A DNA stretch of 64,000 bases from Polaromonas sp. (GTDB lineage Bacteria > Pseudomonadota > Gammaproteobacteria > Burkholderiales > Burkholderiaceae_C): the NCBI RefSeq assembly GCF_030689685.1, contig NZ_JAUYEY010000052.1, positions 1 through 64,000 on the forward strand. The letters are read 5' to 3'. Within the stretch, counting starts at the first letter, position 1. Each line of letters starts with the position of its first letter. Both the position numbers and the translations under genes were made by a program. The notes beneath the pieces are model-generated. The model did not search any database, was not told the origin of the DNA, and saw only the letters and a list, made by a program, of their open reading frames with translations. Below are positions 2,892-43,566 of this stretch, one piece after another.

Positions 2892-3548
2892 ATGGATACA
2901 AACAATCAAGTTCCTGCCACACCAGGCAATCAGCCTGGTTTTTCTCAGCGCATGCAGCACAGCAAGGCGCTGGTTGCCATTGCAGCCGTGCTGGGCGTCA
3001 CGGTGATGGCGCTTGCCGCCGCGCTGGTGGTCAATCGCTCCGACGCTCAGCCCGGTGGAACCGCCGCCGTGGCGCCAACGACGCAGTCGAGCACGACCAC
3101 CAAGCAGGCCAGCAACACGCCGGCGCCCGCGAAACCCGTGGTTCAACAGCGGCCTGTTGTTGTGGCCCAGGCCCCTGCGCCCAAGCCGGTGGTTTGCGCC
3201 GACTGCGGCACGGTCGAAGCGGTGACCCCCGTCCAGCGCCAGGGTCAGGTCAATGGTGTGGCCGTCGGCAACACCACGGTGGGTCTGGGCACTGTCGCCG
3301 GTGGCGTGATCGGTGGCCTGCTGGGCAACCAGGTCGGCGGCGGCAACGGCAAGACGGCCATGACGGTGCTCGGTGCCGCTGGTGGCGCCTTTGCCGGCAA
3401 CAAGATCGAGGAAAACATGAAAAAAGTCACCGTCTACCAGGTGCGCGTGCGCATGAATGATGGTTCGACCCGCAACGTCGAGGTATCCAGCGCGGTGGCG
3501 GTTGGCTCCAAGGTAATTGTTGAAGGCAACAACCTGCGCATGGCCTGA
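2892..3548 (+). CDS. Glycine-zipper 2TM domain membrane protein
   Basis: 218 residues. A single N-terminal membrane anchor spans about residues 26-47 after a polar start. A Pro/Thr/Ala-rich linker with CADCG near 103 follows, then a glycine zipper (TVAGGVIGGLLGNQVGGG, about 135-152, and GAAGGAFAGNKIEE), then a beta-rich tail. This is the layout of the SlyB/17-kDa antigen group, which lodges in the cell envelope; the exact function is unknown. A related lipoprotein with the same zipper and tail is at 28032. It is followed by a clear terminator and so is probably monocistronic. Confidence 0.8.
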   Translation: MDTNNQVPATPGNQPGFSQRMQHSKALVAIAAVLGVTVMALAAALVVNRSDAQPGGTAAVAPTTQSSTTTKQASNTPAPAKPVVQQRPVVVAQAPAPKPVVCADCGTVEAVTPVQRQGQVNGVAVGNTTVGLGTVAGGVIGGLLGNQVGGGNGKTAMTVLGAAGGAFAGNKIEENMKKVTVYQVRVRMNDGSTRNVEVSSAVAVGSKVIVEGNNLRMA

Positions 3549-3586
3549 GCCCTGCCTGCCGCAAAGGCAGACATCAATGCATGAAT

Positions 3587-3623
3587 GAAAGAGGCGTGAT
3601 GGCAAGCCATCCCGCCTCTTTTT
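3587..3623 (+). terminator. Rho-independent terminator after the glycine-zipper gene
   Basis: GAGGCG and GATGG pair with CCATC and CGCCTC around a short AAG-type loop, followed directly by TTTTT. The arm AAAGAGG also pairs into the T-run, so the hairpin could act on both strands. Confidence 0.8.
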
Positions 3624-3734
3624 GCATTTGACATGTCGGCGCCGCCACACCACAGTCGGCGCAGACTGTGCGAAGATTGTCCGCAACCCGATCCCTGCCC
3701 CGGCGGCGGACCCCGCAACCATGAAAGAAGTGTT

Positions 3735-4016
3735 ATGAAGGCCATCTGGAACGGCGCAGTCATTGCGCAAAGCGACGACATCGTGACCATCGAAGGTAAC
3801 CATTATTTTCCCGAAAGCACGCTGAACCGCGATTACGTGACCTTCAGTAACCACCACACCATGTGTGCCTGGAAAGGCCAGGCGAGCTATTACTCGCTGC
3901 TGGTCAATGGCGAGATGAATACCGATGCCGCCTGGTACTACCCCGATCCCAAGTCTGAAGCCGAAGAGATCAAAGGCCGTGTGGCTTTCTGGAAAGGCGT
4001 GAAGATCGAAGCCTGA
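3735..4016 (+). CDS. DUF427 family protein
   Basis: 93 residues beginning MKAIWNGAVIAQSDD with the typical DUF427 pattern: VTIEGNHYFP, an N-x-x-Y-V segment, CAWKGQASYYSL and a final VAFWKGVKIE. The family is a small beta-barrel of unknown reaction. The ATG at 3735 was chosen because family proteins start here; an upstream extension would translate non-conserved sequence. The universal stress gene follows 22 bases later with its own GAGGAG site, so the two probably form a pair. Confidence 0.85.
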   Translation: MKAIWNGAVIAQSDDIVTIEGNHYFPESTLNRDYVTFSNHHTMCAWKGQASYYSLLVNGEMNTDAAWYYPDPKSEAEEIKGRVAFWKGVKIEA

Positions 4017-4038
4017 TTTTTTGAGGAGACAAGCGATC

Positions 4039-4476
4039 ATGTTTAAGCACATCTTGCTGCCAGTAGACGGTTCTTCCACCTCGCTGACGGCGGTCGAGAA
4101 GGCCAGGGGCCTGGCCCAGGCTTTCGGCAGCGCTGTAACGCTGATTTACGTGATCGACCCTTACGCCTTCAGCGGTGTCGGTGCCGACTTCGCTTATGGC
4201 CAGGCGCAGTATCTGGGCGCAGCGACGACGGAAGGCAAGCTGGCGCTGGCCGGAGCGACTGAGCGGCTTGAAAGCGCGGGTATCACGGTGGCCTCGTCCA
4301 TCGTCGAAAGCCATGCCATCTATCGCGGCATCCTCGAAACCGCCAACTCGGTGGGGGCCGACCTGATCGTCATGGGGTCGCACGGCCGCCGAGGTCTCGA
4401 AAAACTCGTGCTCGGCAGCGTGGCGGCGCAGGTGCTGGCGCATGCGCACTTGCCGATTTTGATTGTTCGCGACTAA
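4039..4476 (+). CDS. Universal stress protein, UspA family
   Basis: 145 residues forming one Usp domain. It starts FKHILLPVDGS and ends in the ATP-binding signature GSHGRRGLEKLVLGSVAAQV followed by LPILIVRD. The G-x2-G-x9-G-S pattern indicates the nucleotide-binding subclass. A GAGGAG ribosome site lies 10 bases before the ATG. It is cytoplasmic; proteins of this type respond to starvation or redox stress, but the specific partner cannot be seen here. Confidence 0.9.
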   Translation: MFKHILLPVDGSSTSLTAVEKARGLAQAFGSAVTLIYVIDPYAFSGVGADFAYGQAQYLGAATTEGKLALAGATERLESAGITVASSIVESHAIYRGILETANSVGADLIVMGSHGRRGLEKLVLGSVAAQVLAHAHLPILIVRD

Positions 4477-4516
4477 GCCATTTCGCGGTTTGCTGCCTGA
4501 TACGGGCGGTTTGGGC

Positions 4517-4574
4517 ATCAAATCGGTCGCTGGCCCATAGCACGCGGGCATAAGCAGCTATTGATTTCGTAGCA
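4517..4574 (+). repeat. Short dispersed palindromic repeat (AGCTA/ATAGC family), intergenic copy
   Basis: Core elements are TGGCCCATAGC, a variable GC-rich stretch, then AGCAGCTATTGATTTCGTAGC. The same layout recurs at 12059, 18451, 20881, 26541, 44111, 51511 and 57518. The rest of the 4477-4745 gap holds a second common element (AAAAGAAAGTTACTTG and flanks, about 4645-4710) and no gene that I can support. Confidence 0.65.
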
Positions 4575-4745
4575 AAGACATCATACTGCGTCATCCGGGA
4601 CCCGACCGGGATCCACGCTCGATGACCACCGCCGTTCGGTCGAAGCAAAAGAAAGTTACTTGTCGCCAGGCACTCACCCGATCAGCGGTCGCAGGCAAAC
4701 CAAAAGGCCAGTAACCATGAAAAGATATGGGCAAAGGGCGGCTGT

Positions 4746-5501
4746 TCAATCCCTAACATCCGCCACCGGTTGGCTGCCGAAGTCCGGTTTCGCCAGGTAA
4801 GCCAGAATGCGCGCTGCGGCATCGTCGGGGGAAGTCAACTGCCCCCTGTCCTTGAGGGCGATGAAGTTGGCCTGGTCCGGAAATGCGGTGGCGTCGGCAC
4901 CGCGCAACTGGGTTTGCATATCGGTGTCGATCACGCCGGGCGCCAGCGAGCACACGGCGGCGCCGTTCGGCTTGAGCGCTTCTTCCAGCGCCACGCAACG
5001 CGTGAAGTGGTCCATGCCGGCCTTGGCGGCGCAATAAATGGATTGCGAGGCCATGGCCTTGCGGCCCAGGCCGGAAGAAATATTGAGCACCTTGCGTTGA
5101 CCGGTCCAGCTTTTGGTGGCGCGCAGGAAGGCGGCGGTGAGTTGCATGGGGGCTTCCAGCCCGACCGCCAGGCCTGTGTGCAGGTCGTCGGCGTCTGCGT
5201 CGCTCAGCGGGCCAATGCGCGGGATCATGCCGGCGTTGTTGATCAATACGGCGCTGGCAAAACCTTCGCCAGCCTGCTCGCGCAGCCATTGCTCCAACCG
5301 CGCGCTGAGGTCGACGCTCTGCGCCAGGTCTTGGGTCCATTGCAGCAGCGTGGCGCCCGCCAGTTTGGCCTGTGCGGCCAGAGTGTCGTTGGCCTTGCGC
5401 GAGATGCAAAGCAGGGTGTGGCCGGGTTTGAGCAGTTGGCGGGCCATGGCCAAACCCATGCCGCGGGAGGCGCCGGTCAGGATAAAAAGTTGGAGAGTCA
5501 T
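4746..5501 (-). CDS. Short-chain dehydrogenase/reductase
   Basis: 251 residues from MTLQLFILTGASRGMG. Classical SDR features are present: TGASRGMG for the dinucleotide, INNAG in strand 4, a catalytic Ser in NISSG and Y-x3-K in YCAAKAGM, then the PGVIDTDM segment. The pattern resembles the sepiapterin-reductase/benzil-reductase-like subgroup, which uses NADPH to reduce carbonyls; the substrate is not identifiable. An ATG seven codons upstream is possible, but the family start favours 5501. Confidence 0.85.
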   Translation of the reverse strand: MTLQLFILTGASRGMGLAMARQLLKPGHTLLCISRKANDTLAAQAKLAGATLLQWTQDLAQSVDLSARLEQWLREQAGEGFASAVLINNAGMIPRIGPLSDADADDLHTGLAVGLEAPMQLTAAFLRATKSWTGQRKVLNISSGLGRKAMASQSIYCAAKAGMDHFTRCVALEEALKPNGAAVCSLAPGVIDTDMQTQLRGADATAFPDQANFIALKDRGQLTSPDDAAARILAYLAKPDFGSQPVADVRD

Positions 5502-30900: not shown

Positions 30901-32372
30901 TATTACTGCGTCATAAATTTAATTTTCAACTTACCCACTTGCAATGAGGGCAGTGCCCCAGAGCGCTTGCGAGTGCGGCGCTCAAGTGCAGGCGCAGCGT
31001 CGTGATCGAGTCCGCTACGTGACGCTGCGTGCGCTGGACTTCCCCGAGGGATGTAATCTTCGGGAACGGCAGGCACTTGGCGTTGGGCGAAGTTTTTTTT
31101 ACTGCTGACAGCTGTGCCAGCTCTGAGTCGCTCGGCCATCAGGAACCCGTAGGCCGCGATGCTCAGCGTGGCGTGATGGTGAAACCCGCGCCAGCCCCTT
31201 CCCTCATAGTGGCCCAGCCCGAACTCTTGCTTCAAGTCTTGGTAGTCGCGCTCGATGCGCCAGCGCATCTTGGCAACGAACACCATTTGCTCCAGGGTGG
31301 CCCCACTTGGCGCGGTGGTCAGGAAGTACTTTGTTGGCTCGGCCTCGCCATCGGGCCACTCGATCAGCAGCCACTCTTCGCCTCGCATCTGCGTGCCTTG
31401 ATAGTCCCGATGCGCAGGACGAACCCGCACCCCGGCGAAACGCGAAGACAGCTCGCTATTGCTGCCCTCGCGCCAAGTGACGGTGCGCCAGGCTTGCGCT
31501 GGCAAGGCCATGGCCAGTGCCTTCACTGCCACCGGCTTATTGCCGGGCTCCCGGCGCAGCCGTGTAGGTTTTGCGCCGCGCCCAACCCAGGCTTTGGGCG
31601 GCAGCGGCGCAGTCCCCGGCGCCCACACCGTGGTGGCCGGGGCGGATGCCGACCGCGTAGAGTAGCCCCAACTCCGTGATGCCATCGCGAAAGGCGGTTT
31701 CATCGCCATAACCCGCGTCTGCCAGCACCACGCCCATGGGGACGCCCGCAGCGACTGCCTGGCGCATCTGGGCCTGGGCGATCTCGGGCTTGGTGGCGAA
31801 CGCTTGTGTCTCGGGAATCCCGCCTGCCTTGCGCCGCACCGGATCAGCGGCCCAGTCTTTGGGAAGGTAGAGCTGGTAGGCTATTGGGATGCTGCCTTGC
31901 GCGCTTGCCAATGACAGGCTGACGGCCACCTGGCAATTGTCTTGCTTGCCCAGTTGACCGCAATACTGGCGGGCCACGCCCACAGAGTGTTTACCCTTCT
32001 TGGGAAAGCCCGTGTCGTCGATGATCCAGTAGCAGCCGCTATCGAGCCCCAGCGTCGGCATGACCCAATCGCGCACGCCGGCCAGCACGGCCCGGTCCGA
32101 CCAGTCGGACTTGGCAACAAAATGATGCAGCGCTTGGTGCCGTGCGCTGGCGTGCAGGGGATCAATGCGCGCGGCCATGGGCTCTACGCTTTTGCGTGAC
32201 AAGGGCAGCATCAGGCCAGTGCAATACCCACTGAGTCCCGCGTGTCGGTCAGCATGACCGAGTCCTTGGGACAAATGAGCAATGTACTGACTGAACTCTT
32301 TGGAGATGTCCATCATGCCTCCAGCTAGGATTTCTGATGGCAATAGTATACTGATTCTATGACACAGTAAGA
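30901..32372 (-). mobile_element. IS701-family insertion sequence, 1,472 bp
   Basis: Imperfect terminal inverted repeats read TATTACTGCGTCATAAAT at the left and TCTTACTGTGTCATAGAA as the complement of the right end. Both sides are flanked by CTAG (30897-30900 and 32373-32376), a 4-bp target duplication that fits the YTAR preference known for IS701. The right CTAG is also the first four bases of MITE-like copy 3. The only gene is the frameshifted transposase. Confidence 0.88.
30903..32316 (-). pseudogene. IS701-family DDE transposase, frameshifted
   Basis: Start MMDISKEFSQYIAHLSQGLGHADR. The DDE residues are visible: D in WIIDDTGFPKKG, D in VVLADAGYG and E in RWRIERDYQDLKQEFGLGHYEG. Near 31640 the coding passes from one frame (ending LLYAVGIRPG) to the next (TTVWAPGTAPLPPK). 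Both halves together give a full-length protein of about 450 residues, so one indel inactivates it. A programmed frameshift is not known for this family. Confidence 0.85.
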
Positions 32373-32542
32373 CTAGAAGCCTGGGCGGCAGAAGGAACGT
32401 CGGCTGCAAAGCGGCCGCAGCGGTCCATTTTTCACCGGCTTTTTGCCCCATAGCTACGGCTATGAGGCTGCAAACCCGGCAAAAACTGTCCTCGCCGGGG
32501 CCGATTTTCGCTCTCGACGCCCCAAGCCCGACAGGCTCCTAG
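32373..32542 (-). repeat. MITE-like repeat, copy 3 (inverted relative to copy 1)
   Basis: 170 bp, left end CTAGAAGCCTGGGCGGC, right end diverged (CCCAAGCCCGACAGGCTCCTAG). Its left CTAG was used as the target of the IS701 element. Confidence 0.88.
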
Positions 32543-34786
<2,244 letters not shown>

Positions 34787-34887
34787 AGATGCTACCCATT
34801 TAGCAGTTGCTCAAGCACGCACAAGCTCGGCAGTGTGCCCTCGCCGTGACAGCGGGCGACATCAGGTTCGCGAAGTACCCGAACCGG

Positions 34888-37800
34888 CTACCACCGAAAT
34901 CTGAACGGACGGTATTCATCGTTTCCAAGATAAGCATTCTTCAGACTCGTTACCTGCAATTCAAGGATGTCGAACGGTGCGCGCATCTTGTCACGCCAAC
35001 GCACCGCACGATGCCATTGCTTGTGAAAAACCTGAACCAGCTTATGGCGCGAAGCGGCGCGTAAACGCCCCTCCTTATCAAGCTCGATGGCGAAGCCTCT
35101 GCCCAGCATGCCCAGTACCACCCGATCACCGAATGGCGCTCGATACTCTTCGATCAGGTCGAAAACAAGGCTCCCCTGATCCCGCTCTGTACCGTGAATG
35201 ATTCCGAAGTAAGGGTCCAGGCCGGCACGTATGACAGCTCGCCAGACTTCACCGTACAGCATGCCGTAGATATAGTTGACCGAGCTGTTAACGGCATCTG
35301 TCGCATGGCGTGTGTGGCGCCCGGGAAACGACAACGCAGCAGGAATGAGGGCAGCAAACGAAGACCAATACTTTGCCGCAGCACGGCCTTCGTGCCCCAT
35401 GCCAGAGGCGCGTGCGGCCAGGGTAGCTGGATCAAGGCCATCAAGCGTATCGGCGATGCCGCGAATATCGTCGGCGCATCCTGTCAGTTTTTTATACATC
35501 GCGTCATCGGTGCGTTTGCGATAGCGGGCGAAATACTTCAATACGGAAGCCTGGTTAGCAACTTTGGCGGCAAGCATGCTCAGCCCCACTTTAAGAATGT
35601 CCGGGTCGTTCCTGCGCAAGACCTGCAACCTCCTCAGATTCGAGCGAGTGCCCTGGACCGGTTGGGCAATCGCCGCAGGTATACCCACCAAGGGGTTAAA
35701 GACCAGCGGAATACCGTTGTCGCACAGACGCATCGTCAGGTCGGCAGAAAGGCCAATCCCCTTACCCTCAAGGTAGGCCATCGTCAGCTCGGAAATCGCC
35801 AGGCGAAAGATCTCGTTCTTGCGCCGTCGCACCACCAGGTCATCGCCATTGACCGTGACGAAACAACCGCTCGTCATCACGTGCAATCTCCCGTCGATGA
35901 CCAGGACATCCGGGTCACTTGCCTGATCGGCGTTCTCGCCGTTTGAACCGGGCAATGATGCAAGGGCCAAGGGCGCGGCGTCTGGCTGGCCCGAAGTCTG
36001 CCCCGTCTGAGCTGAAGTGAACTCGACGACAACACGCGACGTACGCTCTATCGGGTAAGCACCCGTCAAGACAGCGACTTCTGCAGCGGTTCGGAATTGA
36101 CGCGCAGCAGCATCAGCCATATCAGGCAGAAATTTTTCGCGCGACGCCCACGCTGTGGCAATGCTGGAATCAACTGCAAACCGCTCGCCAACCAGGACAT
36201 CGACAGCGGCATCCAGCTCCTGTAGCTGGGTCAGAATGCCTGGCGCGTTGTCGATCAGAAAATAATTTCGAAAACCTCGAACCCGCGAATTCATGCCCAT
36301 GATGGCCTGGTATTGCCCCATCGACGTTGACTTGAGAGAGGCAATTTCTTCAACAATCTTGCTGACAGCCTGGATGGTCCCCGCCATCTTTTGTGGCGGT
36401 ATGCAAACGTCCGTCAATCCAATCTCAAAGCCAAGAAACACAATGCCCTCTTCAACAGGGCAGTAGTGAGTCTTGGCCGGTTTGAGGGCCAGCCGCAGGA
36501 CATCCTGGAGGAATTCAGTCATCATGCGCAGCGCAGCCTGCGCCTCTGCCTCGGAGTTGCAGAGCACGACATAGTCGTCGGCATACCGTACAAACGTTAT
36601 CGCTGCTTGCTCAAACTCCTTGTCCAATTGGTCGAGATAAATATTGGCCAAGAGCGGCGAAATCGAATCGCCTTGAGAGATACCCAACTCGGAAGGAAGA
36701 ATGTCCATGAAGTCAATGACATCTGCCAACAGCCATTGCCGGATCAATTGAATCAGGTCGCGATCACCAACCACGTCACCCACCAATCTCAGAAGGATGT
36801 CATGGTCAATGCTGTCGAAGCATTTACGGATGTCCGCCGTCACCGCCCACCGCTTTCCCGCACTGATTGCAGAGCGCGCCATTGCAACGGCGTGATGGGC
36901 ACCACGACCGGGCCGGTAAGCAAAGCTGAACGGGCTGAATCGCGCCTCAAACAGCGGCTCGATGAGCTGCAGGCAAGCGGCCTGCACCACGCGGTCACGA
37001 ACGCAAGCGATTTTTATGACCCGAAAGTCGCCGTCAGGCTTGGGCAGGCGTGCGGTTCGCAAGGGGCGGCTGCGGTAGCGTCCTTGATCCAGCTCCAGCG
37101 CCAGTTGCTGGAGTTCGACATCCAGCGTAACCCCGAACTGCTCAATGGTGATCTGGTCACAACCCTGAGAGTGACGTTTGTGTGCCTTGACTCGAAACCA
37201 GCCGGCGTAGAGCGTTTCCTTCATGCATAGCTTGCGGTACAGGTCGGTATTTTTCGGAGCCTGTGACTCGTTAGCCGCGAGGGCAGACGAGAACTGTTTT
37301 ACCGGCGTCAAACGCAGTTGCTTTAGCGCCTGCCGACGAAAGCCCTGAGCCAAAGAGTCATTGGTTTCACGGGGCCGCACAAGCGCTGTGACGGCTTTAT
37401 GACTGGCGCCGGAGCGCACCCAGACTTGCCCGGGTTTCAAGTCCCGAATGCGCTTGCGCTCAGTTTCGTCAAGCCACGCCGTCTTGGTATCGTCCGGCAA
37501 GTCACCGATGGGGCCGGCTACCCAGCAATCGGCGTCGGCTGCAAGCCAGCTTCGCGCAGCGGCAGGCAGCGGCTGCGCGGCGGAAAATGCGAACAGCCCG
37601 ACCTGTTTCGCATCCACCTCACCAGTCGCCAGCGACAGGGGGCAGGCCGTCGGGAAACCATACAGAAGAATGGGCGAATGCCGCATCGCTTCGCCCTGTG
37701 GTTTGTCACTGTTAGCGGAAAGCAGCGCATCTATAAGCATCGCATCAACCATCCACGAGACGATTTGATGCTCCAGCCGCTCAAAATGAGAACCAGGCAA

Positions 37801-38394
37801 CTCAATCCAGACGGTTGCACCGTGCGTCAGCGCGTGGCTCAAGTCGCTGCAATTGTTGCCTTCTGACAGCGCCCAGACGGCCGGGAAACGCAAGGCCCAC
37901 TCCAGTAATTCGACAAGGCGATCAATTTCTTCGGCCATGGTTTGATTGCGGCGTAGCAGGTGCGATGTCTCTGGGCGTCTAAGGCTGCGAACCAAAGCTG
38001 CCAGTCCAACACTGCCCTGGTCCGCCAGGCGATACGCCATCTCGACAACGGTGTCGATGGTCGCCCCCGAAACAGGTGCCACCACCAGGTTGACGGAACT
38101 TTCAAGAAAACCGCGCAAGGCGGGTTTCATACCCGTCGAACGCTTGAAGCGAAACAATGCCGTGGGCCGTCGCCGGTTGGCAAGGTCGCACCAAAGCATC
38201 GACCCCTTGTGCAGATTACCCTTGTTTTTTTCCATCAATAACGATGCGAGATTGCCTTGATAGTCCACTATGACCAGCGCCTGATCACGCTGCCTGGCGT
38301 GCAGAATGCGGCGCAATGCGAGGTCGGCCGCGTTCTGCACGCGGCCGAGTATCAGAAGAGGCCGTGGGCGCTCACGGTTGGAATTTTTTCTCAT
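34888..38394 (-). CDS. Pseudo-ATPase/reverse transcriptase/Cas1 triple-domain fusion
   Basis: 1,168 residues from ATG 38394 (GTTGGCGAGAATC before it); upstream ATGs at 38409 and 38430 are possible. Residues 10-345 follow the VirD4/HerA layout (PLLILG, then ALVIVDYQGNLASLL at 39-53, DLSHALTHGATVWIELPGS, and LKPGQVWVRSG), but the Walker A slot reads GRVQNAAD and the Walker B slot reads LLYGFP, so it should not hydrolyse ATP. About 383-738 is a reverse transcriptase of the group-II-intron/CRISPR type (TADIRKCFDSIDH with D521; GISQGDSISPLLANIYLD; FVRYADDYVVLC, YADD 604-607). About 830-1158 is Cas1 (VIDGRLHVMTSG, E1002 in GHEGRAAAKYW, H1067 in FGIIHG, E1082 in DLIEEYR). No intron RNA, array or cas2 adjoins. 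Follows the 140-residue gene with overlap. Confidence 0.9.
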   Translation of the reverse strand: MRKNSNRERPRPLLILGRVQNAADLALRRILHARQRDQALVIVDYQGNLASLLMEKNKGNLHKGSMLWCDLANRRRPTALFRFKRSTGMKPALRGFLESSVNLVVAPVSGATIDTVVEMAYRLADQGSVGLAALVRSLRRPETSHLLRRNQTMAEEIDRLVELLEWALRFPAVWALSEGNNCSDLSHALTHGATVWIELPGSHFERLEHQIVSWMVDAMLIDALLSANSDKPQGEAMRHSPILLYGFPTACPLSLATGEVDAKQVGLFAFSAAQPLPAAARSWLAADADCWVAGPIGDLPDDTKTAWLDETERKRIRDLKPGQVWVRSGASHKAVTALVRPRETNDSLAQGFRRQALKQLRLTPVKQFSSALAANESQAPKNTDLYRKLCMKETLYAGWFRVKAHKRHSQGCDQITIEQFGVTLDVELQQLALELDQGRYRSRPLRTARLPKPDGDFRVIKIACVRDRVVQAACLQLIEPLFEARFSPFSFAYRPGRGAHHAVAMARSAISAGKRWAVTADIRKCFDSIDHDILLRLVGDVVGDRDLIQLIRQWLLADVIDFMDILPSELGISQGDSISPLLANIYLDQLDKEFEQAAITFVRYADDYVVLCNSEAEAQAALRMMTEFLQDVLRLALKPAKTHYCPVEEGIVFLGFEIGLTDVCIPPQKMAGTIQAVSKIVEEIASLKSTSMGQYQAIMGMNSRVRGFRNYFLIDNAPGILTQLQELDAAVDVLVGERFAVDSSIATAWASREKFLPDMADAAARQFRTAAEVAVLTGAYPIERTSRVVVEFTSAQTGQTSGQPDAAPLALASLPGSNGENADQASDPDVLVIDGRLHVMTSGCFVTVNGDDLVVRRRKNEIFRLAISELTMAYLEGKGIGLSADLTMRLCDNGIPLVFNPLVGIPAAIAQPVQGTRSNLRRLQVLRRNDPDILKVGLSMLAAKVANQASVLKYFARYRKRTDDAMYKKLTGCADDIRGIADTLDGLDPATLAARASGMGHEGRAAAKYWSSFAALIPAALSFPGRHTRHATDAVNSSVNYIYGMLYGEVWRAVIRAGLDPYFGIIHGTERDQGSLVFDLIEEYRAPFGDRVVLGMLGRGFAIELDKEGRLRAASRHKLVQVFHKQWHRAVRWRDKMRAPFDILELQVTSLKNAYLGNDEYRPFRFRW

Positions 38395-38794
38395 GATTCT
38401 CGCCAACATCTGGCATCGTAGGCGTGGCATCCAGACCAGCAGGGCTTGCTACCACAGCGTTTGGCCTGCCGCGCATCGCCTCAAGGCGCTGGCGACTATA
38501 CAAATAGTAATCCGGCCAACTGAGAAACAACTCGATTTCCTGGAAGCCAAGCATGAGCCCGTCAGCCATTGCCTTGCACACAAGACGATGTTTTTTGGGG
38601 GCGAAATCAGGCACCCGCCAGTGGGTAGCCCCCCTTTTTTCTTCAAAATCCAGCGGTGAAAGCTGATCAATGATGTGCTGTAGGCTGGCGACTCGATTTT
38701 TGAGCGTATTGAGCAAGTCATGCGCCGCCCGTCGGTTAAGGACGAAGCCTTCTTCCAATTGAAATTGGACACCGGTCATAAAACAATGTGCCAT
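38372..38794 (-). CDS. Unknown 140-residue protein coupled to the RT-Cas1 gene
   Basis: The AAGGAG site before ATG 38794 is the best in this locus. The protein starts MAHCFMTGVQFQLEEGFVLNRR, continues with a helical region AHDLLNTLKNRVASLQHIIDQ, then KKHRLVCKAMADGL and IELFLSWPDYYLYSRQRLEAMRG, and has a disordered acidic tail. No family is recognised; similar small proteins may exist on integrative elements, but I cannot confirm that. Its last 23 bases overlap the RT-Cas1 start, so the two are co-translated and probably work together. Confidence 0.8.
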   Translation of the reverse strand: MAHCFMTGVQFQLEEGFVLNRRAAHDLLNTLKNRVASLQHIIDQLSPLDFEEKRGATHWRVPDFAPKKHRLVCKAMADGLMLGFQEIELFLSWPDYYLYSRQRLEAMRGRPNAVVASPAGLDATPTMPDVGENHEKKFQP

Positions 38795-38811
38795 GGTGTT
38801 TGCTCCTTAAA

Positions 38812-38825
38812 AATTGCTAGCAATT
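38812..38825. promoter_or_regulatory. Perfect 14-bp palindrome between divergent genes
   Basis: AATTGCTAGCAATT is its own complement. It lies 18 bases upstream of the 140-residue gene's ATG, in the 208-bp spacer shared with the ATPase gene. It could be an operator for a dimeric regulator controlling both directions; no regulator of the usual HTH type is encoded in the cluster except the H-NS-like protein. Confidence 0.5.
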
Positions 38826-39002
38826 AACTACTTGGAACTAAAAGAATTGCACCATCAAACCCTAGCGCTCCACAACGGCTGCGTTTCACAGATTTGGTGC
38901 TCTCACATGGCCAAAAGGGTGCTGTCATGGTGCCGCCCACCACTGCAAAAACAGGTGGCAGCAATCACCGAATATCTGCACAATCAGAGCCGGGGGACAA
39001 CC

Positions 39003-41120
39003 ATGGGTATAGAGAATCCATTCAACGTTGATGCGGCCTTGGTATCTGAGCATGAGCTTGCACAATTGACTCCGCACGGGGGCGCCGCCATACGGGCGTT
39101 CTGCGGGCTTGACGGTTCGGCAACGGATTGGGAGGAGCGCGGCGTTTGCGTGCTCAAAGCCCGAAAGGGCTTTGGCAAAACTCATCTGCTCGCGGCCCGC
39201 AGCCGGAACCACAGAAGCAGCAGCACTGCAACCCACACCATTTTTTATCCCCAAGGCGGACGCCAACGCATTTTGTTTGATGCTCTGAGCAGCCTGCACG
39301 TCGTCGTTCCACGGTGGCTGCAAGGACGGGAAGCTGCATCGGCCTGGATTTATATTTGGCAGTTATCTGTCTTGGGTCTTTTGGTCTGGATAACCGAATC
39401 ACGTTCGGCCACGCTACGCGGGTACGCAGACTGGTTCGGCAGTCTTGAGTCGTTGGACCAAATTCAAAAGCTAAATAACTCCGGTACCGCAGCAGGTGGG
39501 CAACCCAGCGTCATGCTGACATGGTTCATGGGTCGCATACTTGAACGCATGCCGGTCGATGACTACACGCTTGGGATGGACCAGTTAAAGCAAGGCCTCT
39601 ACCACGGCAACAGCGATTGGGCGATTGCGATCACCGCAAGCATTGCGAGCCGCGACAAGACCCGGATTGTGATGTATCTGGACGCACCTGATGAACTCGT
39701 TGAGCTCAACCCACCCAACCTGTGGAGAAACGTCCAGCAAGGCCTTCTTTTGGCGGTGTGGAAATTTTCCAAGAGTAGTATCTGGAGCCATGTGCTCAAT
39801 ATCTATGCGTCGGTACGCAGCGAGGCCTTCGGCTCCGGCCAGGACCACCCTGACATAGCGCTTGCGATGGGACTTGTGATGCCGCTCGCCTACAGCCGTG
39901 ACGACCTGGAGGCCATGCTTAACGACAGGATTAAACAAGCCGACGCTTCACAATTGACGCTTCCGCTGCAAGAAGGGCAAAAGCCCGTATACGCGCTGTG
40001 TGGCTTCAGTGATGTGACACATGACAACCGGGACGCGCACGATGGTGGGCGCTACACCGAAGACGTGTTTGACTCCATCTTGCGGCACACCCGGTTCGTA
40101 CCACGGGAGGTGATCGGCATAGGCGGAGCCATTTACGCAATCCTTGGCGTGCGAAGTTTCGAAACCGTAAGAGACGCCGTCAACACCAAAGCCAGCAGCG
40201 ACATCGCCTACGCAATCACCCATTCATTTTTAGGGTGGATCGATGCACAGCACGGACGCTTCGCCGCGTCGCTGCCCAAAGAAGTCATAGACCGGAAAAC
40301 AATGGGCGAACTGGCCGCAAAGTTCGGCCAGGACGGCCCCAGGATGATCAAATTTTTTGTCCAGCATGGTCTTGTCGGTATTGCAGAGCCTTTACCGCAC
40401 AGACATCGCCATTACTATCTACAGCGCTTTGCATTTGACGAAGTGCATGGAAATGAAGACGCCAGCTCGGTTAACAAAGATTACTTCTTTCTGCACCCGG
40501 CCTTCAAACAGTGGATTTTGTCCTTGCCAGAACAGTTGACGCAATCGTTTGAGCGCCTTCAGATTGGCGTCATTGGCAACCTAAAACCTTATGAGGCCAA
40601 ACCTCCGCATGTGCGGCTTGGCGTGGTGCGAGAGCAAATCACGCTCAAGCTACGAACAAGCCGAAGAATGTCGACCACCGAAAAAGGTGCCGATTCAGAT
40701 CCGCTCAAGTTTCTTTATGTTGTGCTGTGGGCCTGCCGCGAGCTGAAGCAAACGCGCATCAACCTCAGCGAACTGCGGGAAGTATGGGCCAAACTTCGTG
40801 GGATTGAACGAATCAAAGCGGCGCTGGATGTCTCCTTGCCGAGTCGAGTCGATTCGCTAGCCTTGAAGGTTCGTGATTGGGCAAAGAAAATCAACCAGGA
40901 CAAAGATATTCGCAAGCTACAGCAGATATTACGTGGTACTCGCAGCACACCCACTGGCAATAAAAAACAAAGGCCCGGCACACCGATACATCCGTTTATT
41001 TCAGTCACCGCACGCAGCAACATGGGCGCACAAGTTGAAGTGTGGCTTCCTCATCTTCCGCTCAATGAACTGGATTGGGATGAAGCCATGTACTCACTGG
41101 CTGGCTTCGGAAACAAATGA
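39003..41120 (+). CDS. Large P-loop NTPase divergent from RT-Cas1
   Basis: 705 residues from MGIENPFNVDAALVSEHELA, with GGGGGAC before the ATG; an in-frame ATG at 38907 is less likely. Walker A is KARKGFGKTHLL (53-62 region), Walker B RIVMYLDAPDE (221-231), and a following NIYASVRSEAF has an Arg in the sensor position. PLAYSRDDLEAMLNDRI near 294 fits AAA/STAND-type lids, and the C-terminal 250 residues look helical with possible winged-helix parts. This resembles P-loop proteins found in defence islands, but no named family is assigned. Active motifs contrast with the dead N-domain of the divergent fusion; it may supply the ATPase activity. Confidence 0.8.
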   Translation: MGIENPFNVDAALVSEHELAQLTPHGGAAIRAFCGLDGSATDWEERGVCVLKARKGFGKTHLLAARSRNHRSSSTATHTIFYPQGGRQRILFDALSSLHVVVPRWLQGREAASAWIYIWQLSVLGLLVWITESRSATLRGYADWFGSLESLDQIQKLNNSGTAAGGQPSVMLTWFMGRILERMPVDDYTLGMDQLKQGLYHGNSDWAIAITASIASRDKTRIVMYLDAPDELVELNPPNLWRNVQQGLLLAVWKFSKSSIWSHVLNIYASVRSEAFGSGQDHPDIALAMGLVMPLAYSRDDLEAMLNDRIKQADASQLTLPLQEGQKPVYALCGFSDVTHDNRDAHDGGRYTEDVFDSILRHTRFVPREVIGIGGAIYAILGVRSFETVRDAVNTKASSDIAYAITHSFLGWIDAQHGRFAASLPKEVIDRKTMGELAAKFGQDGPRMIKFFVQHGLVGIAEPLPHRHRHYYLQRFAFDEVHGNEDASSVNKDYFFLHPAFKQWILSLPEQLTQSFERLQIGVIGNLKPYEAKPPHVRLGVVREQITLKLRTSRRMSTTEKGADSDPLKFLYVVLWACRELKQTRINLSELREVWAKLRGIERIKAALDVSLPSRVDSLALKVRDWAKKINQDKDIRKLQQILRGTRSTPTGNKKQRPGTPIHPFISVTARSNMGAQVEVWLPHLPLNELDWDEAMYSLAGFGNK

Positions 41121-41306
41121 TAAAAAAGAATGTGGATTGAACATAAAGTGTTTGCCCTCCAACCTCTAGAAAATAGAAGAATTTAATATTCAAGAAAAAT
41201 TTTTAGCACTTATTTCGCACTTATCTACTTGCATACAAATTAGATTAGCAATACACTTTCGTACATCTTATTTTCTGAAAAATATTACATCGGAAATTAT
41301 TAATTT

Positions 41307-41663
41307 ATGCCTACCACCATTGAGCTGCAACAACAAATCAATCAAGCTGAAGCCAAGGTCAATGAGTTACGCGAAAAACTAACTCAGCAGCAAAATGTCG
41401 AACGTGTACAAGCTATTGCATCAGCGAAAGAGCTTATTAAAACGTACCAACTTTCTGCAACCGATTTGGGATTTGCTGCAAAAAAACCCACGCCCAGCGT
41501 GAAACGCGCAAGGATTGACAAGGGCGTGGCCATAGCGCCGAAATATGCAGACCCTTCTACGGGAAAAACCTGGTCCGGTCGCGGCAAAGCCCCAGCATGG
41601 CTAATAACCTATTTATCTGCTGGTCACAGCAAACAAGATTATTTAATTTCAAATAAGCAATAA
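41307..41663 (+). CDS. H-NS family nucleoid protein
   Basis: 118 residues. An N-terminal coiled coil for oligomerisation (IELQQQINQAEAKVNELREKL, about 4-40), a linker, and the C-terminal DNA-binding block YADPSTGKTWSGRGKAPAWL with the H-NS core TWSGRGKAP. Such proteins coat AT-rich foreign DNA and silence it. It sits in an AT-rich stretch between the ATPase and the VapD-like gene, typical of xenogeneic silencers carried by mobile islands. No convincing ribosome site is seen. Confidence 0.88.
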   Translation: MPTTIELQQQINQAEAKVNELREKLTQQQNVERVQAIASAKELIKTYQLSATDLGFAAKKPTPSVKRARIDKGVAIAPKYADPSTGKTWSGRGKAPAWLITYLSAGHSKQDYLISNKQ

Positions 41664-41682
41664 CGCCTACTTACTGCTGGCA

Positions 41683-41710
41683 TTACATTGAGTGATGTGT
41701 ATTATATAAT
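41683..41710 (+). promoter_or_regulatory. Sigma-70-type promoter of the VapD-like gene
   Basis: TTACAT at 41683-41688, a 16-base spacer, and a perfect TATAAT at 41705-41710, followed by a leader of about 30 bases to the ATG at 41747. The AT-rich surroundings make H-NS control plausible. Confidence 0.55.
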
Positions 41711-41746
41711 CTACATATATACATAAACAGCCTGAAAGAAAAAATC

Positions 41747-42208
41747 ATGGCTCGCTGCCTTATTGTTTTTGACCTTGACACTGAATTGCTGAAAGTCAAC
41801 TACCACAACAATAGTTGGAATAATGGTTACGGTGATATCCGGAAAGTTCTCAACAAACACCGCTTCAACAATATTCAGGGAACCGTGTACTTGAGCGAAC
41901 GTGGTGTTCGCCAAGCTCACGGAACGATTGCACTTCAAGAAATTGCCATCAGGTTTTCTTGGTTCGATAAGTGCGTGTCGAATGTCCAGTTCTATGATTT
42001 AGCTGATGACTTCAATGCGCAGTTCATCATTGATGGAATCACACAGGCAAGATTGGCTTTTGATCGCCGGATTACTGAATTGCGGCAGCAATTGATCAGT
42101 GTGGGTTTGCCATTGGACAAGGTGGATGAGATCATCGGCAAACAAACCTTCTCCTTGGAAAATTCCACCCAAGGCAATCCGCATCCCGCCATTGGTGGGC
42201 AGTCGTAA
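41747..42208 (+). CDS. VapD-like (Cas2-fold) ribonuclease family protein
   Basis: 153 residues. The first 95 match VapD: CLIVFDLDTELLKVNYHN, WNNGYGDIRKVLNKHRF, IQGTVYL, and WFDKCVSNVQFYDL. VapD has a Cas2-like ferredoxin fold and is an RNase in Helicobacter. The Asp of FDLDT is kept. The C-terminal 55 residues (RRITELRQQLISVGLPLDKVDEIIG...) are an extra helical tail. It may be a VapD-type toxin, or a partner taking the Cas2 place beside the RT-Cas1 fusion; the second is inference from location 3.4 kb away. Confidence 0.8.
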   Translation: MARCLIVFDLDTELLKVNYHNNSWNNGYGDIRKVLNKHRFNNIQGTVYLSERGVRQAHGTIALQEIAIRFSWFDKCVSNVQFYDLADDFNAQFIIDGITQARLAFDRRITELRQQLISVGLPLDKVDEIIGKQTFSLENSTQGNPHPAIGGQS

Positions 42209-42724
42209 GTTTACATTGCATTTACGATCAAGATTATGTAAACCGTTGATTTTATTGGTGATTTTGTTTTGTCAAAATTCAACTATTGCCTGAAACTCTT
42301 TATATTTCAAGGCACTGCTGAATGATTGGAATGGTGTCGAAAACCCCGGATTCGACAGCCTTCTGCCTCCCGCATTCGACACGCTTGCAAGTCGTTGAAA
42401 ACAAAGCGGTTTTATACCCGGCAAAACCGTCATTCAGGCCAGTTGTCGAAAATCGACGTACGCATTGCCCGCCAGCCAACGCCGGTGACCTGAGTTCAGG
42501 GTGATCTCATGCCACTTTGTCGATTGCGCACAGGGTTTTGAGCCTGGAAATGGTGTTTTGACGGGCTGTGGCCGCAATCCGTCCGCCAAAAGCGTGACCC
42601 GACTGAGAACAAAGGCCCTTCAAGGGCCTTTGTTCTTGCATCACCAAGAATATTTCACTAGAAAGCATTGCGTTTCTTATAAAGAATATTCACAATCTAT
42701 TAAAACTTTGACTAATCAAACGCT
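42209..42724. other. 516-bp AT-rich intergenic region with clustered inverted repeats
   Basis: No gene is supported. It holds GTTTACAT (42209-42216) facing ATGTAAAC (42236-42243), and four copies of TGTCGAA in both orientations at 42335, 42351, 42375 and 42444; the first pair forms TGTCGAA-N9-TTCGACA. A strong hairpin lies at 42607. It could be an operator array, an attachment region or an island junction; I cannot tell which. Confidence 0.55.
42607..42635. terminator. Strong 13-bp perfect hairpin
   Basis: GAACAAAGGCCCT pairs exactly with AGGGCCTTTGTTC around a TCA loop, followed by a weak T-rich tail (TTGC). Likely terminates transcription before the toxin-antitoxin module. Confidence 0.65.
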
Positions 42725-43198
42725 ATGAACACCCCCACCATAGACACTTCGATGGCCAGACGCTTGGTCGAGGCCTCTGCGATCCGCAGCGCATCCATCA
42801 TTGGCCAGCCTGGCGGCTGGTCCGTGGTCTTGAAGATGGGCTCGCAAGAGCGGCCTCTTGGGGCGCAGCGCAGTGACAAACCGCGCACCTGGCGCAGCCT
42901 GGACCGCGCCGTGGCCTACCTCAAGGACGAGCTGCACATTGCCCGCTTTGACCTTCTGGATGCCACCAACCACTCCAAGGCGACGCTTTTAGTGGGCAAG
43001 TCTCGCGTAGATGCCTCCGAGCGGCTGCGTCAGGCACATGAGGCGGCCGGACACGACAAGTGGTTTCGTGGGCAAGTGGAACTAGCGATCAAGGACGCAG
43101 ACGCACCGGATGTGCAGTGGGTGTCGGCGGCTGACGCCAAAGCCAGCTGGAAACAAAAACGGGCTGAGTTGGTCAGGCGCGCAGGGAGCGCCGCTTGA
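42725..43198 (+). CDS. Antitoxin partner of the ParE/RelE-type toxin
   Basis: 157 residues. An N-terminal region (ASIIGQPGGWSVVLKMGSQERPL...TWRSLDRAVAYLKDELHI) resembles a plasmid-type KfrB/regulatory fold. The C-terminal half, ERLRQAHEAAGHDKWFRGQVELAIKD followed by VQWVSAADAKASWKQKRAEL, has the pattern of antitoxin toxin-binding tails. The toxin gene overlaps its stop. Longer than usual ParD/RelB antitoxins, so it may be a two-domain form. No strong ribosome site is visible. Confidence 0.75.
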   Translation: MNTPTIDTSMARRLVEASAIRSASIIGQPGGWSVVLKMGSQERPLGAQRSDKPRTWRSLDRAVAYLKDELHIARFDLLDATNHSKATLLVGKSRVDASERLRQAHEAAGHDKWFRGQVELAIKDADAPDVQWVSAADAKASWKQKRAELVRRAGSAA

Positions 43199-43470
43199 CG
43201 CTGGTGTGGTTGAAGCGAGCCATCAACGACCGCGACGCCCAGCTCGACTACATCGCGCAGGACAATCCGCTAGCCGCTATCACCCAGGGTGACCGGATTG
43301 CTGAACAGGTTGACACCCTTCTGCAACACCCCCAAATGGGACGCCCAGGGCGCAAGCAAGGCACCCGTGAGCTGGTCATCAGCCGCACGCCGTTCATTGT
43401 GGTGTACCGCCTCAAAAGTAAACGCATTGAGCTTCTGCGTCTGCTGCATGGCGCACAACAGTGGCCGTGA
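43195..43470 (+). CDS. ParE/RelE-superfamily toxin
   Basis: 91 residues: VWLKRAINDRDAQLDYIAQDNPLAAI, then RIAEQVDTLLQHPQMGRPGRKQGTREL, VISRTPFIVVYRL and IELLRLLHGAQQWP, the full family pattern. It starts with TTG overlapping the antitoxin stop (TTGA), with GGGAG seven bases ahead. RelE-fold toxins cleave mRNA at the ribosome and ParE-fold toxins poison gyrase; the sequence fits the ParE/YafQ branch but the target is not decided. A terminator follows. Confidence 0.88.
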   Translation: MTLVWLKRAINDRDAQLDYIAQDNPLAAITQGDRIAEQVDTLLQHPQMGRPGRKQGTRELVISRTPFIVVYRLKSKRIELLRLLHGAQQWP

Positions 43471-43543
43471 GCGACTATGCATGAGGGCGTTTTCAGCGCT
43501 TTCTTAACTCGCAGCTTAATATTTTGCCCGCAAGCCAGTGCTT

Positions 43544-43566
43544 AGGGCCCGAACGGGCCCTTATTT
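43544..43566 (+). terminator. Terminator of the toxin-antitoxin operon
   Basis: AGGGCCCG and CGGGCCCT form the stem around AA, followed by TATTTTT. It overlaps the last codons of the convergent oxidoreductase gene. Confidence 0.85.

Follow-up and report, generated by a model that had tools for sequence, protein, structure and literature searches.

What does a reverse transcriptase (RT) fused to Cas1 do when no CRISPR array lies beside it? The question is raised by a gene of Polaromonas sp., found on the minus strand of the first 64 kb of contig NZ_JAUYEY010000052.1 (the window, meaning the whole stretch of DNA analysed), which joins an N-terminal domain (NTD), a group II-type RT and a Cas1 domain in one protein. 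In the literature consulted RT-Cas1 is tied to CRISPR, and a conserved copy with a new NTD and with neither array nor cas2 found beside it would suggest that its chemistry has been taken for another use. It would also give a direct way to test the role of RT-Cas1 without CRISPR, since both the three-part protein and its partner gene are of a size that allows expression and assay. We tentatively favor the explanation that the fusion represents a rare RT-Cas1 lineage that has left the ordinary CRISPR setting, resides in a variable genomic island and uses a pseudo-ATPase NTD to hold nucleic acid.

The three-domain gene and its copies

The fusion occupies a single open frame at 34888-38430, with 1180 codons and no internal stop; residues are counted from its first ATG unless numbering from Met13 is stated. 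The RT part matched Pfam RVT_1 (residues 463-670, E 3.6e-39) and NCBIfam group_II_RT_mat (405-737; 287 bits, below its cut-off of 300), and the Cas1 part matched PF01867 (849-1133, E 6.6e-54). A first-pass annotation, made from the letters alone, had described a three-domain gene with YADD in the RT and E1002, H1067 and E1082 in Cas1. We confirmed each of these points: each of the seven copies found has NTD and RT in one frame, YADD lies at residues 616-619, and the Cas1 triad is E1014, H1079 and E1094 in our numbering, the earlier count having begun at Met13. The fusion thus holds both YADD and the E/H/E site, with the RT N-terminal to Cas1. All six Cas1-containing copies keep the E/H/E site, and FRFRW forms the C-terminal end of the six that reach the end of the protein. 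Both the RT and the Cas1 of the fusion are predicted to be active.

Our sequence search in other genomes gave seven fusion copies in six betaproteobacterial genomes, and the neighbors of these copies were compared. Four copies are complete (window, L037, L053 and L005), L006 and L007 are cut by contig ends, and the frame of L039 (genome G035) is broken inside the RT; its pieces were compared separately and left unmended. L037 is a paralogue on contig C85 of the host genome (G000) and is 74% identical to the window's copy, L053 comes from G1182 of the same genus (78% identical), and L005 is 66% identical with all three parts complete. Because the three-part frame is complete in L037, G1182 and L005 too, the fusion is not a chance or mis-joined frame. 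A chance frame, a pseudogene and a separate NTD gene were all rejected on the seven copies together with the substitution ratios given below.

The fusion is rare. A scan of 84,980 species' genomes, which detects close relatives only, returned three loci (L005, L006 and L007). In 399 genomes of the family, 160 matched the fusion somewhere, and among the matches listed only those of G000 (two copies), G324 and G035 begin within the first 100 residues, the remainder covering mainly the RT or Cas1 part; G324 and L007 were counted as one and the same copy. The G1182 copy came up through a non-coding element described below, in a search of 61 genomes. An NTD profile run against 399 genomes of the order and 369 of the class found G000 only, and no NTD was found in plasmids, phages or viral contigs. 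Searching G000 with the fusion returned its two fusion copies plus an RT and a Cas1 that stand as separate genes, one of each.

In a tree of 46 RT rows, the seven fusion RTs form one branch (support 100/99) apart from eight of the ten CRISPR RTs; the rows nearest to it are two long branches, and its own position is unsure. Six fusion Cas1 domains likewise form one branch (98/97) in a 20-row Cas1 tree. This branch adjoins the Arcobacter type III-B RT-Cas1, itself a long branch (99/97), and it lies far from the host's type I-C Cas1. The fusion likely descends from an RT-Cas1 adaptation module.

We estimated pairwise ratios of nonsynonymous to synonymous substitution rates (dN/dS) among the copies of the window, L037, L053, L007 and L005. 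Ratios were 0.129-0.202 for the NTD (five pairs), 0.059-0.169 for the RT (four pairs, the fifth being saturated) and 0.042-0.087 for Cas1 (three pairs; one was saturated and one lacked the domain), and 0.22-0.42 for the linker at 731-836 (from Met13). The NTD is under purifying selection, and therefore it is a working part of the protein.

A small gene, P0002, appears to be a partner of the fusion. A gene of this type stands immediately upstream in all six loci whose upstream DNA is available. In four of these it overlaps the start of the fusion by exactly 23 nt, and in the other two it ends 2 and 11 nt short of it. The overlap suggests translational coupling of the small gene and the fusion, and its recurrence in four of six loci makes Met13 the likelier start of the fusion. 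P0002 matched no family above cut-off in Pfam, NCBIfam and PADLOC scans, and its AlphaFold2 model reached a predicted local distance difference test score (pLDDT) of 40.9.

The N-terminal domain

The first-pass annotation had read the NTD as following the coupling-protein/HerA fold strand by strand, with GRVQNAAD and LLYGFP in place of the Walker residues. Both stretches are present (G29-D36 and L255-P260), and Walker A and Walker B residues are absent from every copy that holds those stretches. The first 395 residues had no family match beyond chance in Pfam, NCBIfam and PADLOC, no PDB sequence match at E<=10 and no PHROG match at E<=1.

PMC6013744 describes RT-Cas1 with Cas6 as its N-terminal partner, and the fusion matches PDB 7kft, with the best stretch at RT residues 441-669, so we considered whether the NTD is a diverged Cas6 and the protein another Cas6-RT-Cas1. 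No Cas6 model of Pfam, NCBIfam or PADLOC matched the NTD at E<=10. A profile of 15 Cas6 sequences scored 16.0, which is the shuffle mean and was equalled by 47 of 100 shuffles, and a two-sequence profile scored 12.5, with 81 of 100 shuffles as high. Cas6 is not recognisable by profile in the NTD, and we rejected this origin on the chance-level score and the lack of a model match; even a strongly diverged Cas6 is very improbable.

With a set of ten TraD-type coupling proteins, the NTD profile gave a score of 33.5 and, taking this comparison alone, an E of 0.0018. The alignment places NTD residues 9-81 (from Met13) onto the P-loop region over 72 columns, with GRVQNAAD facing Walker A and VIVDYQGNLA facing the next strand. 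None of 1000 column shuffles (100 and a further 900) reached this score, the best giving 32.4; the reversed NTD gave 22.1, and ten leave-one-out runs gave 29.0-34.7 with constant register. Taken singly, the seven NTDs scored 29.7, 28.9, 24.5, 20.8, 33.2, 14.4 (L006, whose N-terminal part is missing) and 19.9. For a mixed set of 55 coupling proteins that includes some duplicates, the score was 28.8 (1 of 100 shuffles as high), with 203 collinear columns aligned, 8-226 to 17-245.

TraD gave the top score among the type IV secretion system (T4SS) ATPase families tried, with 23.1 for seven TraG/VirD4-type proteins and 17.2 for two VirB4 proteins. Four coupling-protein groups scored 26.8, 19.7, 15.6 and 25.7, the last for TraG and out of register; a TraG-like set of three scored 18.2, and these three combined with the TraD ten scored 30.1. 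The motif filter had removed five intended TrwB-like sequences and most TraG-like ones from this comparison. The best of 175 single proteins scored 23.8, with F TraD fourth at 21.9, and the mixed coupling-protein alignment came first (22.8) among 12 family alignments, the others reaching up to 21.4. Since about eight coupling-protein target sets were tried, 33.5 is a chosen best score. True relatives used as controls scored 233.7 (TraG against TraD) and 51.9 (VirB4 against TraD).

Several results weigh against a coupling-protein ancestry. The hhalign probability of the NTD-TraD match is 15%, which falls short of significance as profile matches are normally judged. Outside the coupling-protein set, 12 of 387 proteins score at least 33.5 against TraD (eleven with a Walker A motif, the twelfth a VirB4 missed by the motif pattern), and a Rossmann-like flavoprotein reaches 31.3. 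The C-terminal half of the NTD (170-350 from Met13) scored 12.5 on its own, and 77 of 100 shuffles did as well. These results, together with the low TraG and VirB4 scores and the lack of matches in PDB and PHROG and of any beyond chance in Pfam, would also fit an NTD unrelated to coupling proteins, that is, a new alpha/beta domain with a Rossmann-like or generic P-loop-like start and only a generic match to TraD. We regard this as possible, and as a serious competitor; the alignment to TraD does extend beyond the P-loop, TraD is the best of the families tried, and the shuffles fall short of its score.

Most likely, the NTD descends from a P-loop NTPase, the catalytic residues having been lost from every copy. 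Of the earlier claim, the degenerate P-loop origin is supported, and the specificity for coupling proteins or HerA is not established: other P-loop proteins score as high, and the C-terminal half is at chance. Profile comparison, one of the checks proposed with that claim, thus gave a weakly TraD-like NTD; structure prediction, another, gave an AlphaFold2 model from four sequences with a pLDDT of 42.3, too poor for fold reading. A coupling-protein origin is the best single guess, and we do not offer it as a result.

The genomic setting

We searched for arrays as 16-mers in at least 3 copies 45-95 nt apart. None was found in the seven fusion loci (the 64-kb window, L037, L053, L005, L006, L007 and L039; 5.4 to 64 kb each) or in the flanks of L037, about 20 kb to either side. 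The search was positive near NTD-less RT-Cas1 genes of G025 and G152, which belong to the same family, and it also detected the array next to the type I-C Cas1 of G000. Because no array was found beside the fusion, it may copy RNA into DNA for a purpose other than CRISPR memory.

Six loci continue beyond the stop of the fusion, and in none of them is the next gene a cas2, as judged by eye except for a family-scanned gene of L006, and with the small open reading frames (ORFs) of the fusion loci only partly scanned with Cas2 models. The next gene lies within about 230 bp in all six (about 100 bp in the window; an opposite-strand gene about 230 bp away in L039). By comparison, cas2 directly follows cas1 in eight of eight plasmid loci with RT and cas1, and RT and cas1 are separate genes in three of them. 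These eight came from the best 12 rows, with two near-duplicates, one locus without Cas1 and one other excluded. No type III or VI effector genes were noticed in the ORF tables, of which only chosen neighbors were scanned with family models.

The fusion could nevertheless act as an ordinary CRISPR adaptation enzyme in trans, placing RNA-derived spacers into an array elsewhere with that system's Cas2 and with the NTD as an accessory. RT-Cas1 otherwise occurs in type III or VI-A CRISPR loci, according to the open text of PMC5513706 and PMC6753606, and the catalytic residues of both enzymes are kept. G000 carries a type I-C Cas1 (PADLOC Cas1c, E 1e-151) beside an array on another contig than the window's fusion, and the fusion could work in trans with this host system. 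A distant array is possible in any case because the genomes are drafts in many contigs. These points count against a departure from CRISPR, and PADLOC families matched neither P0002 nor P0003, the divergent neighbor of the fusion. We still consider action in trans unlikely, given the lack of arrays and of directly downstream cas2 in the DNA searched, the distance between the fusion Cas1 and the I-C Cas1, and the single separate RT and single separate Cas1 that G000 holds besides its two fusions.

Two CRISPR loci of the family drew our attention in their own right. In L040 (G025:C7, 7225-11385 and 12557-14868), a 714-aa RT-Cas1 without NTD has as neighbors a large CRISPR array and a 638-aa gene in which Csx16 is combined with two domains, a Card1-like CARF and an endonuclease, preceded by a PP2C-like gene; no Cas10-type gene was noticed within 20 kb, where not every ORF was scanned. 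In L038 (G000:C2, 7687-9148), ORFs of 284 and 189 aa stand in the I-C cas row before the Cas4-like and Cas1 genes, and from their sequences we take both to be foreign to that row.

The fusion and its neighbors lie in an island whose features are collected in Table 1. The match to the left-flank gene, which we presume from its sequence to be fadH-like, ends near 34777, and the right-flank gene starts at 43561. The left-flank gene was present in 29 loci, 11 of which hold both flanks, 7 of these within 85 bp, and the middle part of the island was matched in none of the 29. Because the flanks are adjacent in relatives, the roughly 8.8 kb between them represent DNA inserted in this lineage. A search for the empty site of L053 gave no clean boundary.

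Table 1. Features of the fusion locus, in window coordinates.
Feature	Position	Strand	Evidence or remark
NTD-RT-Cas1 fusion gene, from likely start	34888..38394	-	Met13 of 1180-aa ORF 34888-38430
NTD, aa 13-395, putative degenerate P-loop-like domain	37246..38394	-	TraD profile comparison, purifying selection
Group II intron-type RT, aa 397-740	36211..37242	-	YADD 616-619
Cas1 domain, aa 849-1180	34891..35886	-	E1014/H1079/E1094, C-terminal FRFRW
Small upstream gene P0002, 140 aa, no known family	38372..38794	-	Overlaps fusion start by 23 nt
Divergent P-loop ATPase P0003, weakly Sll1717-like	38817..41120	+	Likely start ATG 39003
H-NS-like protein P0004	41307..41663	+	PF00816 E 1.2e-14
VapD-family protein P0005, not clear Cas2	41747..42208	+	NCBIfam VapD 50.8 bits (cut-off 100)
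Conserved non-coding DNA, iterated TGTCGA(A/T) sites in both orientations	42221..42575		Also in L053, L037 and L039
Island, about 8.8 kb	34787..43560		Flanking genes adjacent in relatives without island

The gene content of the fusion loci varies. P0003 (NCBIfam ATPase_Sll1717, 29.8 bits with a cut-off of 75) has a 70% identical copy at the equivalent place in L007 and none in the other loci compared; in L037 and L053 the divergent neighbor is instead a 274-328-aa gene of no Pfam family. A 68% identical copy of P0004 adjoins L037. P0005 matched PADLOC Cas2 (E 3.5e-7), yet VapD fits better; its identity to VapD proteins of plasmids is about 50%, and none of the other fusion loci compared gave a match to it. 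We disfavor it as the missing Cas2, since it stands beside one copy only and is nearest to plasmid VapD.

From their sequences, we take the genes that follow the fusion to be flavin oxidoreductase-like in the window, PIN-domain-like in L037 and a large convergent gene in L053. In L006 a weakly SprT-like protease gene lies downstream (3158-3766; 17.8 bits, cut-off 25.6), overlapped by a 578-aa ORF of no Pfam family (3741-5474). The SprT-like gene is also begun in L005 (13523-13796); none was seen after the fusion copies of the window, L037, L053 or L039. Toxin-antitoxin genes border three fusion loci, at 42725-43470 in the window (ParE, by Pfam) and, in presumably PIN/VapC-like form, at 10319-10741 in L037 and 8590-9266 in L005. 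Further out in the window, a gene at 30903-32451, which we take from its sequence to be an IS4-type transposase, looks broken because it is split over two overlapping frames (31537-32451 and 30903-31709).

Window positions 42221-42562 are about 72% identical to L053 9672-10013 over about 340 bp and 72% identical to L037 15780-15898 over 120 bp. The wider window element (42221-42575) contains an 18-nt direct repeat at 24-bp spacing. TGTCGA(A/T) occurs at 5 sites in the 251 bp at 42325-42575, with 0.13 expected from the rest of the window; this enrichment is a Poisson estimate, made on regions chosen after viewing. Five sites occur in L053, three in L037 (15780-16010) and three in L039 (8544-8700), where they stand just upstream of the small gene. 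The element lies at the far end in the window, L037 and L053 and beside the small gene in L039, and it has no match in L005. Among the 61 genomes searched it was clear in G000 (two places) and G1182, with one more match over 25 bp only, and it had no match in plasmids. A structured RNA is not supported: folding z-scores were -0.12, -2.46 and -1.35 on one strand and -0.75, 0.33 and -0.49 on the other, and the structures differ. Rfam had no match in the window. The element looks like iterated protein-binding DNA, and we treat it as a candidate for that.

Iterated TGTCGA sites resemble transposase-binding ends, which raises the idea that the locus is a mobile element: Cas1 would move the island in the manner of a casposase, the RT would aid replication or retro-insertion, and the non-coding element would be one end. 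Compared with relatives, the island is inserted DNA; its occurrence is patchy, and one genome carries it on two contigs. The similarity that the window shares with L037 and L053 breaks off no more than a few bases from the stop codon of the fusion. Set against this, no matching motif was seen at the other island end, terminal repeats and target-site duplications were not found (no systematic search was made), and L053 lacks a clean empty site. The element also changes place among the loci and has no match in L005, and the window's island continues past it into the toxin-antitoxin pair. We judge a mobile element quite unlikely.

Proposed function and known systems

Under the explanation we favor, a rare RT-Cas1 lineage outside CRISPR, the RT would make cDNA on captured RNA, or extend or tail a primer on it, and Cas1 would join the cDNA end to target DNA. 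The NTD, most likely as a dead P-loop NTPase of the superfamily to which coupling proteins belong, would no longer hydrolyse ATP and could provide a nucleic-acid-binding or oligomerising platform for the RT-integrase, taking the place that Cas6 or Cas2 has in known complexes. The most likely use of the island would be to defend the host from mobile elements, the divergent gene acting as an exchangeable effector; a defence role is a guess from context. The iterated TGTCGA element would be one candidate integration target. RNA can serve RT-Cas1 proteins as a substrate for integration (open text of PMC11014452 and PMC5513706).

We also considered, as a rather unlikely possibility, that a Cas2-less and array-less RT-integrase with a dead DNA-motor clamp captures RNA, copies it and inserts the resulting cDNA at a fixed acceptor outside CRISPR, such as the TGTCGA element. 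Different genes lie between this element and the RT-Cas1 operon in different copies. If true, this would be a retro-integration system distinct from CRISPR adaptation and from casposons.

RT, RT-Cas1 and Cas6-RT-Cas1 have been described (PMC5513706, PMC6013744 and PMC8934634, in their open text). In the open literature consulted, including the accessible text of PMC5541045 and PMC6753606 and with subscription papers and supplements outside this scope, no RT-Cas1 with such an NTD is described, and the first-pass annotation's statement that no RT-Cas1 with a coupling-protein-like domain was known holds to that extent.

The only likeness to the VapD/Cas2 family is in the neighbor P0005, with its VapD match and weaker Cas2 match, which is closest to plasmid VapD and found beside one fusion copy only. 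Like casposons and solo Cas1, the fusion places Cas1 in an island with no CRISPR array beside it; here, however, Cas1 is fused to an RT, and terminal repeats were not found in a search that was not exhaustive. Casposons carry PolB (PMC9939771, open text), and none was noticed among the neighbors, against which no PolB model was run. The NTD shares with TraD/TrwB-type coupling proteins a weak profile similarity with the P-loop region in register, but it lacks Walker A and B and the similarity is not significant by profile standards; no T4SS or relaxase genes were noticed in the window's ORF translations, of which not all were scanned. Cas6-RT-Cas1 of the Marinomonas branch (PDB 7kft) also has three parts, with an extra domain before RT-Cas1, but the NTD of the fusion has no similarity to Cas6. 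The RT-Cas1 proteins of type III and VI-A systems are alike in their group II-type RT N-terminal to Cas1, their YADD and their Cas1 E/H/E. The fusion differs from them in that its loci have no directly downstream cas2 or array in the DNA searched, in its own RT and Cas1 branches and in its 380-aa NTD. Together, these comparisons suggest a form of RT-Cas1 with a new N-terminal domain, whose function we infer from its sequence.

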